Shown piece by piece: positions 31,676 through 36,377 of a stretch of DNA of 36,377 bases (position 1 is the stretch's first letter; every line of letters begins with the position of its first letter). Source of the DNA: Acetobacter sp. AN02 (GTDB lineage: Bacteria; Pseudomonadota; Alphaproteobacteria; Acetobacterales; Acetobacteraceae); assembly GCF_029759835.1 (NCBI RefSeq), contig NZ_JAJJND010000018.1, forward strand, positions 1 through 36,377, in the 5' to 3' direction. Position numbers and translations under genes: made by a program. The notes beneath the pieces are model-generated. The model was not told the DNA's origin. It did no database searches and saw only the letters and a program-made list of their open reading frames with translations.

Positions 31676-32941
31676 ATGACCGATCAGATCAGGCAGACGC
31701 GCCTTCCCTCCGGCCTCACGGTCGTCACCGAACGGATGGATCGTGTCGGAACCGTCTCCTTCGGAGCCTATGTCTCCACCGGAACCCGTAACGAACCGGC
31801 CGCGGAAAACGGCGTGTCCCACTTCCTGGAACACATGGCCTTCAAAGGCACGACCTCCCGCTCAGCCGTGAAAATCGCAGAGGAAATCGAGGATGTCGGC
31901 GGGCACATCAACGCCTACACAGCCCGGGAACAGACCGCCTACTACGTCAAGCTGCTCCGGGAAGACCTCGCACTGGGCGTCGATATCATCGGAGACATCC
32001 TGACCCGCTCCACCTTCGCTCAGGACGAGGTGGAACGCGAACGCGGCGTGATCCTCCAGGAAATCGGCCAGGCCAACGATACCCCCGACGATATCATCTT
32101 CGATCACTTCCAGGAAACCGCCTTCGCCGGACAGCCGATGGGCCGCCCGACACTCGGAACGGAAGACCTGATCCGGGACATGCCGCGCGAAACCCTCATG
32201 TCCTACATGGGCGCACATTACACGACACAGAACATGGTCGTCGCCGCCGCCGGAAACCTCGAACACGACACCGTCGTGAACCTGGTGGAAAAACACTTCG
32301 CAGACCTGCCATCCCGCCCTGTCCCCCCGCGTGACGCAGGCCACTACACAGGCGGGGAATTCCGCCAGGAAAAAGACCTCGATCAGGCCCACCTGGTCCT
32401 CGGCTTCCCCTCCGTCGGCTTCGGAGACCCGGACTACTATCCAGTCATGCTGCTCTCAGCCATCCTCGGCGGCGGCATGTCCTCCCGCCTGTTCCAGGAA
32501 ATCCGGGAAAAACGCGGCCTGGTCTATTCGGTCTATTCCTTCAACCTCCCCTTCACGGACAGCGGAATTTTCGGAATCTACGCCGGAACCGGAGAGAAGG
32601 AAGCAGAGGAACTGGTCCCCGTCACCCTCGCCGAACTCCTGCGCATCCAGCGTGACATCACCCCCCAGGAACTGGCCCGCGCCCGCGCGCAGCTCAAATC
32701 CTCCCTGCTGATGTCACTCGAAAGCACCGGAAGCCGCTGCGAACAGATCGCCCGTCAGCTCCAGATCTACGGCCGCCTCGTCCCGATCAGCGAAACCATC
32801 CGCAAAATCGAGACCGTCACGGCAGAAGACATCCAGCGCGTCGCAACCCGCCTGTTCCGCGGCAGACCCACACTGGCAACGCTCGGCCCGATCTCCCGCG
32901 TACCCTCCCTCGACAGCATCTGCGGGAAACTCGCGGCATGA
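31676..32941 (+). CDS. M16-family zinc peptidase (MPP/PqqL-like)
   Basis: The 421-aa product is a single-unit M16 metallopeptidase. The inverted zinc motif HFLEH lies at 49-53 with a distal Glu near 122-129 (ERERGVILQE). The C-terminal half has LGGGMSSRLFQEIREKRGLVYSVYS, the Gly-rich and Arg-Tyr block that closes over peptide substrates. There is no signal peptide, so it should act in the cytoplasm. AGGAA precedes the ATG. Placement after thrC is common in Alphaproteobacteria. It overlaps the next gene, a TldE/PmbA protein, by 4 nt, suggesting joint work on peptides. The substrate is unknown. Confidence 0.93.
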   Translation: MTDQIRQTRLPSGLTVVTERMDRVGTVSFGAYVSTGTRNEPAAENGVSHFLEHMAFKGTTSRSAVKIAEEIEDVGGHINAYTAREQTAYYVKLLREDLALGVDIIGDILTRSTFAQDEVERERGVILQEIGQANDTPDDIIFDHFQETAFAGQPMGRPTLGTEDLIRDMPRETLMSYMGAHYTTQNMVVAAAGNLEHDTVVNLVEKHFADLPSRPVPPRDAGHYTGGEFRQEKDLDQAHLVLGFPSVGFGDPDYYPVMLLSAILGGGMSSRLFQEIREKRGLVYSVYSFNLPFTDSGIFGIYAGTGEKEAEELVPVTLAELLRIQRDITPQELARARAQLKSSLLMSLESTGSRCEQIARQLQIYGRLVPISETIRKIETVTAEDIQRVATRLFRGRPTLATLGPISRVPSLDSICGKLAA

Positions 32942-34287
32942 GCACGGATAAGAACAGAACAGCCCTCGTCCGGGAACTGATCGATACCGCCGTCAGAGCC
33001 GGCGCAGACGCCGCGGACGCCGTCTTCGTCCGCAGCCTCGCCCTCAGCGCAGGCGTACGTAACGGACAGCCCGAAGACATCGAGCGCTCGGAAACCTGCG
33101 ACCTCGGCCTGCGCGTGTTCGTCGGGAAAAAACCCGCTATCGTCTCCGCCACAACCCTCGATCCCGCCCGCTTCAGAGACCTCGCGGACCGCGCCGTCGC
33201 CATGGCCCGCGTCCTGCCCGAAGACAGCTTCGCAGGCCTTGCGGAAAACGCCCTGCACGGAGAGTTCGATGCACAGGGCATGGACCTCAGCGATACTGCA
33301 CAGCCCGATACGGCAGAACTCCTCAGCCGTGCCAGAGAGGCGGAAGACGCCGCCTTCGCCGTCTCCGGCGTCACCAAAAGCAGCGGCGCAGGCGCGTCGT
33401 GCGGACGCACGGAACTGGTCCTCGCCTCCTCCGCCGGCTTCTCGGGCGCATACAGCCGGACCCGGCACTCCGCCTCCGTCAGCGTGCTGGCCGGAAGCGG
33501 AACCGCCATGCAGCGGGACTATGACTACCACTCAGCAGTCCACCTGGCCGATCTCGATCCCGCAGCCCGGATCGGCCGCAGCGCCGGAGAACACGCCGTC
33601 GCCCGCCTGAACCCGGCCCGCCCGCGCACGGGAAAAATGACCGTGCTCTTCGACCCGCGCGTCGCAGGCAGCATCGCAGGACACCTCACCGCCGCCATCA
33701 ACGGCGCCTCCGTCGCCCGCGGAACCTCCTTCCTCAAGGACCGGCTCGGCACACGCCTCTTCACCCCCGGCGTCTCCGTCATCGATGACCCGACCCGCAT
33801 CCGCGGCCTCGCCTCCCGCCCGTTCGACGGAGAAGGCGTCAGAGCCGGACCGCTGCACCTGGTGGAAGACGGCGTGCTGCAGTGCTGGATCCTGGACAGC
33901 CGCAGCGCCAGACAGCTCGCCCTCCCCTCCTCCAACGGCCGCGCCGCACGCGGCCCCTCCGCCCCGCCACAGCCGTCAACCAGTAACCTGTATATCGCCG
34001 CAGGCAGCCTCTCCCCCGACGCCCTGATGTCAGGCATCACGGAAGGCATCTACATCACGGAAATGATGGGCTCCTCCGTCAGTATGCTCACCGGAGACTA
34101 CAGCCGCGGCGCCTCGGGCTTCATGATCCGGGACGGAAAACTGGCCGAACCGGTCGCGGAATTCACCGTCGCCGGAAACCTCACCGATATGTTCGCACGC
34201 CTCATCCCCGCGGACGATCTGGAATTCCGCCGGGGAACCGATGCCCCCACCCTGCGTATCGACGATATGAGCATCGCCGGCGTCTGA
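32938..34287 (+). CDS. pmbA: TldE/PmbA-family protein
   Basis: TldD and TldE (PmbA) form a protease that trims unfolded peptides and matures some modified peptides; TldD carries the zinc site. The 449-aa product matches PmbA in length and has VLFDPRVAGSIAGHLTAAI near residue 237, ARGTSFLKDRLG, SRPFDGEGV near 296 and MGSSVSMLTGDYSRGASGF near 377. No HEXXXH is present, so it is the TldE-type partner rather than TldD. No tldD gene is in the window. The start overlaps the M16 peptidase stop by 4 nt (ATGA). The call to family is firm; the client peptide is not known. Confidence 0.92.
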   Translation: MSTDKNRTALVRELIDTAVRAGADAADAVFVRSLALSAGVRNGQPEDIERSETCDLGLRVFVGKKPAIVSATTLDPARFRDLADRAVAMARVLPEDSFAGLAENALHGEFDAQGMDLSDTAQPDTAELLSRAREAEDAAFAVSGVTKSSGAGASCGRTELVLASSAGFSGAYSRTRHSASVSVLAGSGTAMQRDYDYHSAVHLADLDPAARIGRSAGEHAVARLNPARPRTGKMTVLFDPRVAGSIAGHLTAAINGASVARGTSFLKDRLGTRLFTPGVSVIDDPTRIRGLASRPFDGEGVRAGPLHLVEDGVLQCWILDSRSARQLALPSSNGRAARGPSAPPQPSTSNLYIAAGSLSPDALMSGITEGIYITEMMGSSVSMLTGDYSRGASGFMIRDGKLAEPVAEFTVAGNLTDMFARLIPADDLEFRRGTDAPTLRIDDMSIAGV

Positions 34288-34324
34288 ACCGCGCCAGCCT
34301 CAGAAAACCCAAGGAGACCGTCCC

Positions 34325-35323
34325 ATTTCCCCGCGATTCCGCTCCGGCCTGCTGGCCCTCTCCCTCTCCCTGACCGTCCTGCCCGGAGCCCTGCTCCCGA
34401 CAGATGCAGACGCACGCCCCGGCCAGGGCGGCTCAATGGGCAGCCGGGGCAGCAGAACATGGAGCGTCCCGCCCGCAACCCGGACCAGCCCGACCGGCAC
34501 GGCCCCGATGCAGCAGTCCATAACCCCGCGCCAGCCCATGCCAGGCACACCGGGCTACGGCTATAACCGGCCCTACCCCGGACCGATGAACAGCGGCTTC
34601 ACCCGCCCGCGTCACCCGTTCCTGACAGGCTTCATGGGCGGAATGCTCGGAGCCGGCCTCTTCGGCCTGCTGAGCGGCCACGGCTTCTTCGGCGGAATCC
34701 ACAGCCTGTTCAGCTTCTTCTGGCTGCTGATCCAGATCGCTCTGGTCATCCTGGTCGTCCGCTGGCTCTGGCGCCTCATCTCGGGCAACCGCAGCGCAGG
34801 CAGCGGCCTCTTCTCCTCCTTCGCAGGCAGACCCGGAGGCATGCCCCCGGGCGGCACACCCTCCGGCGGTTTCCCCCAGAACGGCTTTCCGCAAAACGGC
34901 GCAACACCTTCCGGAAACGTACAGATCGGCCCCCAGGACTATCAGTCCTTCCAGACAACCCTGCTGAATATCCAGAACGCCTGGAACAGCCAGGACATCC
35001 GCGCCATGCAGGGCATGGCCACCCCGGAAATGGTGTCCTACTTCAACCAGCAGCTCGCAGCCCTCGCCAGCCGCGGCGCACGCAACGTCGTCTCGGACGT
35101 AAAATTCATCAGCGGAGACCTCGCAGAGGCCTGGTCAGAAAGCGGATACGACTACGCAACCGTCGCCATGCGCTACAGCCTGATCGACCTCACCACAGAC
35201 CTCACCGGAAACGTCCTGCAGGGCAGCTCAACAGACCCCGTCACCGTCTCCGAAGTCTGGACCTTCATCCGCCCCTCCGCCGGAGGCGCCTGGCTCCTCT
35301 CCGCCATCCAGCAGACCAGATAA
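34325..35323 (+). CDS. Tim44-domain membrane protein, apparent ATT start
   Basis: Starting at ATT 34325 gives 332 aa. The first ATG in frame (34436) would remove a clear export signal: the preceding 37 codons encode SPRFRSGLLALSLSLTVLPG followed by a cleavable-looking ADA region. AAGGAG at 34311-34316 sits eight bases before the ATT, and no ATG, GTG or TTG lies in frame near it. After a Ser/Thr/Pro-rich linker come hydrophobic segments at about 99-155 (including FWLLIQIALVILVVRWLW). A Gly/Pro linker and a C-terminal Tim44-like domain at about 204-332 follow, with NIQNAWNSQDIRAMQGMATP and a final VWTFIRPSAGGAWLLSAIQ. It lies 37 nt after pmbA. The role is unknown; relatives are membrane-anchored. 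Confidence 0.85.
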   Translation: MSPRFRSGLLALSLSLTVLPGALLPTDADARPGQGGSMGSRGSRTWSVPPATRTSPTGTAPMQQSITPRQPMPGTPGYGYNRPYPGPMNSGFTRPRHPFLTGFMGGMLGAGLFGLLSGHGFFGGIHSLFSFFWLLIQIALVILVVRWLWRLISGNRSAGSGLFSSFAGRPGGMPPGGTPSGGFPQNGFPQNGATPSGNVQIGPQDYQSFQTTLLNIQNAWNSQDIRAMQGMATPEMVSYFNQQLAALASRGARNVVSDVKFISGDLAEAWSESGYDYATVAMRYSLIDLTTDLTGNVLQGSSTDPVTVSEVWTFIRPSAGGAWLLSAIQQTR

Positions 35324-35436: not shown

Positions 35437-35952
35437 ATGAAAATTTCCCGTGCTCTGAAATGTATCAGTCTGTTCCTGCCTGTATTCCTCGCCATCCTTT
35501 CCACCTCGATGGCCAGGGCTGATGACGGGCCGGAAATCTGGAAGATCTACGCGAACGCACGGTTTCAGTATCAGATATGCTACCCCTCCACCCTAATCCG
35601 ACCCCAGGGGGAGCCCGATAACGGAGATGGTCAGGTATTTATCGGAGACCACGGAGCGGAATTAAGGGTCTTCGGAAGAAATCGTATCGACAGAATGACA
35701 ATCGCCGATAACGCCATGCTGGCATCCGGACAGCTGACGCAAAGCGGGGGAAAAGTCACCTATCAGGTCATACGCGGAAACCGGGCTGTCATATCCGGAA
35801 CCGATGGAAAAAACGCAGTATTCTACAGCAAAATCATCAGAAACAATGATCACTACGTCATTTTCGAACTGACATACCCGAAGGAACAGCGTGCCGTGTA
35901 TGACAGGATTGCCAGTCATCTCTCCGGATGCCTCAAGGCCGATCCGGGCTGA
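35437..35952 (+). CDS. small exported protein of unknown function (171 aa)
   Basis: The product has a classical signal peptide: basic start, hydrophobic residues 9-24 and an ARA cleavage site before Asp29. The mature part of about 143 aa begins DDGPEIWKIYANARF. It has two Cys (near 48 and 165) that could pair as a disulfide, and patterns such as FQYQICYPSTL and ELTYPKEQRAVYDRI suggesting a compact beta-rich domain. GGGAG lies four bases before the ATG. Its codons are visibly less GC-rich than those of its neighbours (many AAA, ATA, AAT), and it borders an AT-rich stretch, which may point to later acquisition. I recognise no family; periplasmic or secreted location is inferred. Confidence 0.85.
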   Translation: MKISRALKCISLFLPVFLAILSTSMARADDGPEIWKIYANARFQYQICYPSTLIRPQGEPDNGDGQVFIGDHGAELRVFGRNRIDRMTIADNAMLASGQLTQSGGKVTYQVIRGNRAVISGTDGKNAVFYSKIIRNNDHYVIFELTYPKEQRAVYDRIASHLSGCLKADPG

Positions 35953-36320
35953 ATCCCCGCTTCCGATAAATGCGGAAAGCATCCGGAATATATATGTTTC
36001 TTTCCCGACCGCCTTCAGAAAACCCTGTCACCGGCAGCCAATGACTGCAATACGACCTTCCGGCAGCGAGATATATCTGAAGTATACAACGCATACTCAT
36101 AATAAAATATGAAATATATTTATATAATTTTCAAATTAATTTATATACTTATCAAATTACCCGTATTGATATTAGATATTTTATCCGAATTTCCTTTTTT
36201 ATTATCAAAAATATCCTTCTTTTTCGTCGCCAAGGCTGTGATATGCGCTCTTTACTGCATACAAACCTTACGGCGTATCGTCAGTTAAGGAGGATGATGA
36301 CTGATACCAACCATTGATTG
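35953..36320 (+). other. AT-rich non-coding stretch
   Basis: No credible gene is seen in these 368 bases. The part from about 36085 to 36225 is extremely AT-rich, in sharp contrast with the rest of the window. GCTTCCG and CGGAA-AGC near 35960-35980 could form a short hairpin after the preceding gene. AAGGAGG near 36290 followed by ATGATG opens only a seven-codon frame ending at TGA, probably fortuitous. Confidence 0.6.
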
Positions 36321-36377
36321 CTAGAACCTATGCGCCCAATTGCGCAGTCCGATTGACATGATGCGCCAAGGTTGTTC
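36321..36377 (-). CDS. possible 3' end of a minus-strand gene (partial)
   Basis: Reading the minus strand from the window edge gives an open frame of 18 codons, EQPWRIMSIGLRNWAHRF, ending with TAG at 36323-36321. The Trp/Arg-rich composition and a stop next to an AT-rich spacer fit the end of a gene, perhaps of a mobile element, but this is too short to identify. No terminal inverted repeat could be recognised. Confidence 0.3.
   Translation of the reverse strand, partial: EQPWRIMSIGLRNWAHRF

Follow-up and report, generated by a model that had tools for sequence, protein, structure and literature searches.

In Escherichia coli, the codon ATT is a very poor start, and the gene pcnB begins with it. 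Feedback by initiation factor 3 (IF3) is known for infC, which starts at ATT in E. coli and at ATC in Streptomyces; beyond it, starts that depart from ATG, GTG and TTG have been characterised in few bacterial genes, according to the sections consulted of one study (PMC5472188). The same sections describe sigR of Streptomyces as an IF3-repressed gene with a GTC start, the codon being GTC in 32 and GTT in 2 of 34 species (PMC5472188). CUG initiation complexes are less stable than those formed on AUG, GUG or UUG, as stated in the portion available of another report (PMC11497404). The gene described here, which encodes a Tim44-domain protein in Acetobacter sp. AN02 and very probably starts at ATT, can be set beside these systems. 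By analogy, sigR is the closest precedent: both genes are other than infC, have a non-canonical start whose codon varies between species and carry a strong Shine-Dalgarno (SD) sequence, and the importance of the ratio of sigR to its partner gene rsrA invites a likeness to the Tim44 gene. In contrast, sigR encodes a sigma factor for which IF3 repression has been tested, whereas IF3 repression of the Tim44 gene would be putative and its relatives mostly begin with GTG. With infC the gene shares a rare codon behind an SD sequence, but it is a different gene, its start varies within the genus and a feedback loop is not evident. The likeness to pcnB lies in an ATT start outside infC, although the proteins are unrelated. 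A limited search of the literature on noncanonical starts in Acetobacter found no description of the start of the Tim44 gene; a thermotolerance screen in Zymomonas lists a Tim44 gene and is silent on starts in the portion consulted (PMC5571576).

The window, i.e. the whole stretch of DNA analysed, comprises 36,377 nt of an AN02 contig, and the elements of the locus lie on its forward strand. An M16 peptidase gene (31676–32941; Pfam Peptidase_M16) overlaps by ATGA a pmbA/TldD-type peptidase gene (32938–34287; Pfam PmbA_TldD domains), whose stop codon TGA (34285–34287) ends 37 nt before the ATT at 34325. In the gap between pmbA and the Tim44 gene, three of the loci compared (L087, L088 and L089) have a long hairpin, and the changes between these three genomes look compensatory by eye. 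Downstream of the Tim44 gene, the window contains a small gene (35437–35952) whose product seems by eye to carry a signal peptide and for which no Pfam or NCBIfam match was obtained. Further on, an AT-rich stretch is followed by a contig end of different appearance (36080–36377; by eye), which may be the border of a mobile element.

The frame of the Tim44 gene is opened by TGA at 34268–34270, contains no ATG, GTG or TTG between this codon and the ATG at 34436–34438, and has ATT 34325–34327 as its earliest start-like codon when seven are sought (ATG, GTG, TTG, CTG, ATT, ATA and ATC). Read from the ATT, it extends over 332 codons plus the stop (34325–35323, stop at 35321–35323) without internal stops, with the ATG 37 codons downstream and in frame. 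An AAGGAG motif at 34311–34316 precedes the ATT by 8 nt; its six-base match gives a duplex with the anti-SD sequence of -8.3 kcal/mol. RNA folding around the ATT (z -0.11 and -1.20) is unremarkable. The CTG codons at 34349 and 34352 were rejected as candidate starts, as the SD sequence is over 30 nt away from them and a protein begun there would have no charged n-region.

From the ATT, the protein would begin (I/M)SPRFRSGLLALSLSLTVLPGALLPTDADA-RPGQGG, and its first 30 residues (34325–34414), ending in ADA, resemble a Sec signal peptide by eye; a similar stretch stands at the same place in the listed orthologs. A transmembrane-like stretch, FFWLLIQIALVILVVRWLWRLI, follows at 34715–34780 (by eye), and residues 207–330 (34943–35314) match the Tim44-like domain PF04280 with an E-value of 1.7e-27 and 96.8 bits, above the Pfam gathering cut-off of 29.6. 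The protein scores 33 bits against the TimA adaptor family NF033779, below the NCBIfam cut-off of 80, and is therefore considered a different Tim44-domain protein; the Tim44 domain is common to both, the export signal and the transmembrane-like stretch (both by eye) being the features that set the AN02 protein apart. None of the solved structures matched it at E 0.1, and the gene has a single match in the AN02 genome. The first-pass annotation had placed AAGGAG and an in-frame ATT at these coordinates with the same 8-nt spacing, had named ATT as the one well-placed codon and had located an export signal upstream of the first ATG, all of which agrees with the layout found here. Its warning that gene finders would miss the signal peptide is borne out for a list of open reading frames limited to ATG, GTG and TTG, in which the peptide is lost because the gene then begins at 34436.

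An SD sequence followed by ATT says little by itself. A scan of 489 kb of the AN02 genome on both strands for AGGAG or GGAGG followed after 5–9 nt by ATT, ATC, ATA or CTG heading an open frame of at least 100 codons returned 40 rows (17 and 23, a few of them counted under both motifs), most of which look spurious to the eye. Among 298 genes in 489 kb, 14 rows with near-cognate codons were obtained, and a first scan of 250 kb with 133 predicted genes picked out four candidates, infC and the Tim44 gene being the two that looked real. Counts of this kind in a sample of the genome are unsuited to showing an enrichment of near-cognate starts behind SD sequences, since chance alone makes such pairs common. 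Since the pairing of SD and ATT alone is at chance level, the case for the ATT rests on the orthologs.

The Tim44 gene is present in all 49 Acetobacter genomes examined, and the mature protein of many of them is an exact match to named Acetobacter loci. At the aligned start, GTG occurs in 31 genomes, CTG with an ATG three codons further on in 10, CTG alone in 6, ATT in AN02 and ATG in one (G030). Counted back from the MGSRG motif at the internal ATG, the ATT of AN02 is codon -37 and the GTG is codon -36 in 30 genomes; in the remaining GTG genome (G005), a draft rated 92% complete, a frameshift follows just after the GTG. The comparison of orthologous starts, which the first-pass annotation had proposed along with the ATT start itself, thus finds GTG or CTG at the aligned place in 47 of the 48 other genomes, and the relatives begin there rather than at the internal ATG. 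Taken together, a canonical start in the proper place is absent from the AN02 gene, SD spacing is normal and orthologous starts occur at the matching position, as is characteristic of a non-canonical start.

As ATG and ATT are one change apart and AN02 is represented by a single draft genome of 186 contigs, a sequencing or assembly error could have hidden an ATG or another standard start. This is very improbable: the genome is 99.98% complete and 0.01% contaminated, and an error is needless as an explanation because an ATG is likewise absent from the aligned codon in 47 of the other 48 genomes.

The six genomes with CTG alone differ in what else their frames offer. In G011, G452 and G454 no standard start is found before MGSRG in the range shown, in G024 and G012 the sole standard codon is a TTG that falls within the hydrophobic stretch, and in G016 it is a TTG far upstream. 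G016 (L092) is the least sure of the CTG cases, having a weak SD sequence, AT-rich surroundings and possible alternative readings. In total, 7 of 49 genomes show just ATT or CTG at the aligned start. The protein tree, which holds 46 of the 49 Acetobacter genomes and 6 outgroup rows, places the CTG-only state in three positions, one of which (G012 and G016) is nested among GTG rows; off the tree are the frameshifted L090 (G005), L093 (G030), truncated where its contig stops, and L094/L095 (G010), split over two contigs. In the ten genomes with both codons, CTG is codon -35 or -36 with the ATG three codons later, and GGAG stands 7–8 nt from the CTG and 16 nt from the ATG (17 by arithmetic).

The other conceivable start is the internal ATG at 34436, which would yield a protein without signal peptide and is the start chosen by an ORF caller confined to ATG, GTG and TTG. 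No standard start precedes it in the frame, and Acetobacter orthologs often have a methionine at this motif. However, no GGAG occurs in the 20 nt upstream, the listed orthologs encode a signal-peptide-like stretch before it (by eye), and the methionine is replaced by F, V, L or I in other genera. Its surroundings also fold more stably than those of the ATT (-28.6 versus -17.4 kcal/mol over 81 nt), which does not exceed what would be expected from their composition (z +0.88). Initiation at 34436 is therefore regarded as extremely improbable.

A further reading holds that the AN02 lineage has lost its start and that the gene is falling silent. ATT is a poor start, and the residues ISPR that follow it recur within the n-region of two orthologs from other genera (L061 and L066), a weak hint that the ATT could be an old internal isoleucine codon. 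On the other hand, the 332 codons have remained open, the mature protein is 65% identical overall to that of A. conturbans, the closest of the named relatives (72% over the locally matched part), the G+C content by codon position (0.58/0.50/0.82) is coding-like, and the SD match is longer than in the GTG relatives, so that decay of the start is very improbable indeed. The same 65% identity means that the 5' end of the AN02 gene has no close comparison.

Outside the genus, 51 loci from 49 genomes were compared, two from Methylobacterium included (L053/L110 and L054/L113 represent the same genomes twice). An in-frame ATG lies between codons -60 and -28 in 50 of them, the remaining locus (L105) ending short, and in 19 of these 50 the ATG has an SD-like match 3–12 nt before it. 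This shows that an ATG is available in these loci, from which its use as the start does not follow. In 15 of the 51 loci (L061–L070, L071, L072, L074, L075 and L077) the layout is CTG-NNN-NNN-ATG with the CTG nearer to the SD sequence, at a distance of 10 nt in 12 loci and 4 nt in 3. These loci come from genomes which, presumably, resemble Komagataeibacter and Gluconacetobacter. That their CTG might be a piece of the pmbA stop was considered and rejected for L061, L064 and L071, in which pmbA ends upstream of it.

How firmly the weak codons are held can be judged against neutral change in the same gene. In a clade of 11 rows, consisting of the ten CTG+ATG rows and A. conturbans, the CTG is present in 11 of 11, compared to 2 invariant columns among 85 fourfold degenerate ones, and 2 of the 9 bases flanking it (three before and six after) are invariant. 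If the ATG were the sole start, this CTG would be untranslated in ten of the rows, and the eleventh has CTG in place of the ATG. The pattern suggests that the CTG is used in this clade, so that the ten genomes with both codons may truly start at the constant CTG instead of the ATG that follows three codons later. Among the 29 GTG rows, each of 65 fourfold columns varies, although the unanimity of these rows is by construction because they were picked by their GTG; the part of the tree they occupy holds GTG (29 rows) or CTG (G012 and G016) and no ATG. The neighbouring genes start with ATG, in 52 of 52 resolved loci for pmbA (59 loci searched, 58 matched, 6 of which end at or just before its start) and in 20 of 20 resolved loci, out of 22, for the M16 gene, with repeat copies of the same species included in this set.

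The SD sequence varies along with the codon. In the 30 GTG rows used for this comparison (which includes L094, the fourfold comparison being made on 29), 26 have a match of 4 bases at 11–12 nt and 4 have none. The CTG+ATG rows have 4–7 bases at 7–8 nt, five of the ten sharing the 4-base GGAG of the GTG rows; in the CTG-only rows the match is 5 bases at 6–9 nt in five of six, G016 being without a match, and the ATT row of AN02 has 6 bases at 8 nt. Weaker codons thus tend to go with a better SD sequence, the compensation being partial. A rank test on the duplex energies (p 1.7e-5) is a description only, because it ignores relatedness and takes the CTG as the start in the CTG+ATG class. Starts at GUG and UUG are known to receive such compensation, and selection generally favours AUG, as far as the sections consulted of one study state (PMC5622118).

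These patterns bear on whether weak initiation has been selected. It has been argued above that a start other than ATG persists, but selection for weakness is unproven because GTG is an ordinary start, and we put its chance in the genus slightly short of even. Alternatively, constraint on the start could be relaxed, such that a gene with low need drifts among weak codons without the weakness being selected. The occurrence of several start codons across the genus fits this view, which is nonetheless rather unlikely given that the 29 GTG rows have not reverted to ATG despite saturated fourfold sites, that CTG is constant in the 11-row clade and that selection in general favours AUG (PMC5622118, in the sections consulted). 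In the form of stabilising selection for weak initiation, GTG, CTG and ATT would constitute a natural allelic series, each codon paired with a particular SD strength and spacing, and ATT and CTG would tie the output of a membrane protein to the level of IF3; this more specific proposal is tentative and somewhat doubtful.

As to IF3, infC was found in 49 of 49 genomes; in AN02 it starts at ATA behind AGGAG (around position 1466 of L083, contig C57 of genome G000), and the same ATA after AGGAG is present in all 30 Acetobacter loci read (L083 and L164–L192). Because infC begins at ATA in 30 of 30 loci, autoregulation by IF3 through the rare codon probably exists in Acetobacter. The Tim44 gene could then be under meaningful IF3 control, its initiation rising when IF3 falls, in step with infC; the ATA start of infC and the seven of 49 genomes in which the Tim44 gene has just ATT or CTG at its start are in line with this. 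ATT is a codon other than ATG, GTG and TTG, as found in the IF3-regulated class, but relatives do not keep such a codon, as 31 of the 49 genomes have GTG and one has ATG. A conserved IF3 switch is disfavoured because of these 31 GTG genomes, and the start of the Tim44 gene is variable whereas the ATA of infC is constant. Judged from the aligned starts, the trait shared across the genus is a start other than ATG, not an IF3-sensitive codon. The ATT and CTG versions may respond to the level of IF3, and a putative IF3 regulation of the Tim44 gene that matters to the cell is considered unlikely.

The preferred reading, which we consider probable, is that the ATT start is real and that the gene retains a non-ATG start for an exported or membrane-anchored Tim44-domain protein. 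It builds on one AN02 assembly of one strain and on features read directly from the DNA, namely the position and frame of the codon, the orthologous starts, the persistence of GTG and CTG amid neutral change and the ATG of the neighbouring genes. Translation from ATT 34325 would produce the exported or membrane-anchored protein, the weak codon being aided by a good SD sequence at normal spacing, and the Acetobacter gene would manage without a well-placed ATG, with GTG, CTG or ATT at the aligned start. The most likely role of such a start would be to limit this membrane protein to a low and fixed rate of synthesis, perhaps with reference to pmbA just upstream.

One gene that has GTG, CTG or ATT at the same position within one genus could allow start strength, SD compensation and IF3 sensitivity to be compared in natural alleles. 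In the seven genomes with ATT or CTG only, start-finding limited to ATG, GTG and TTG would be expected to truncate or remove the signal peptide, so that the export signal of this protein is easily missed by gene-finding software.
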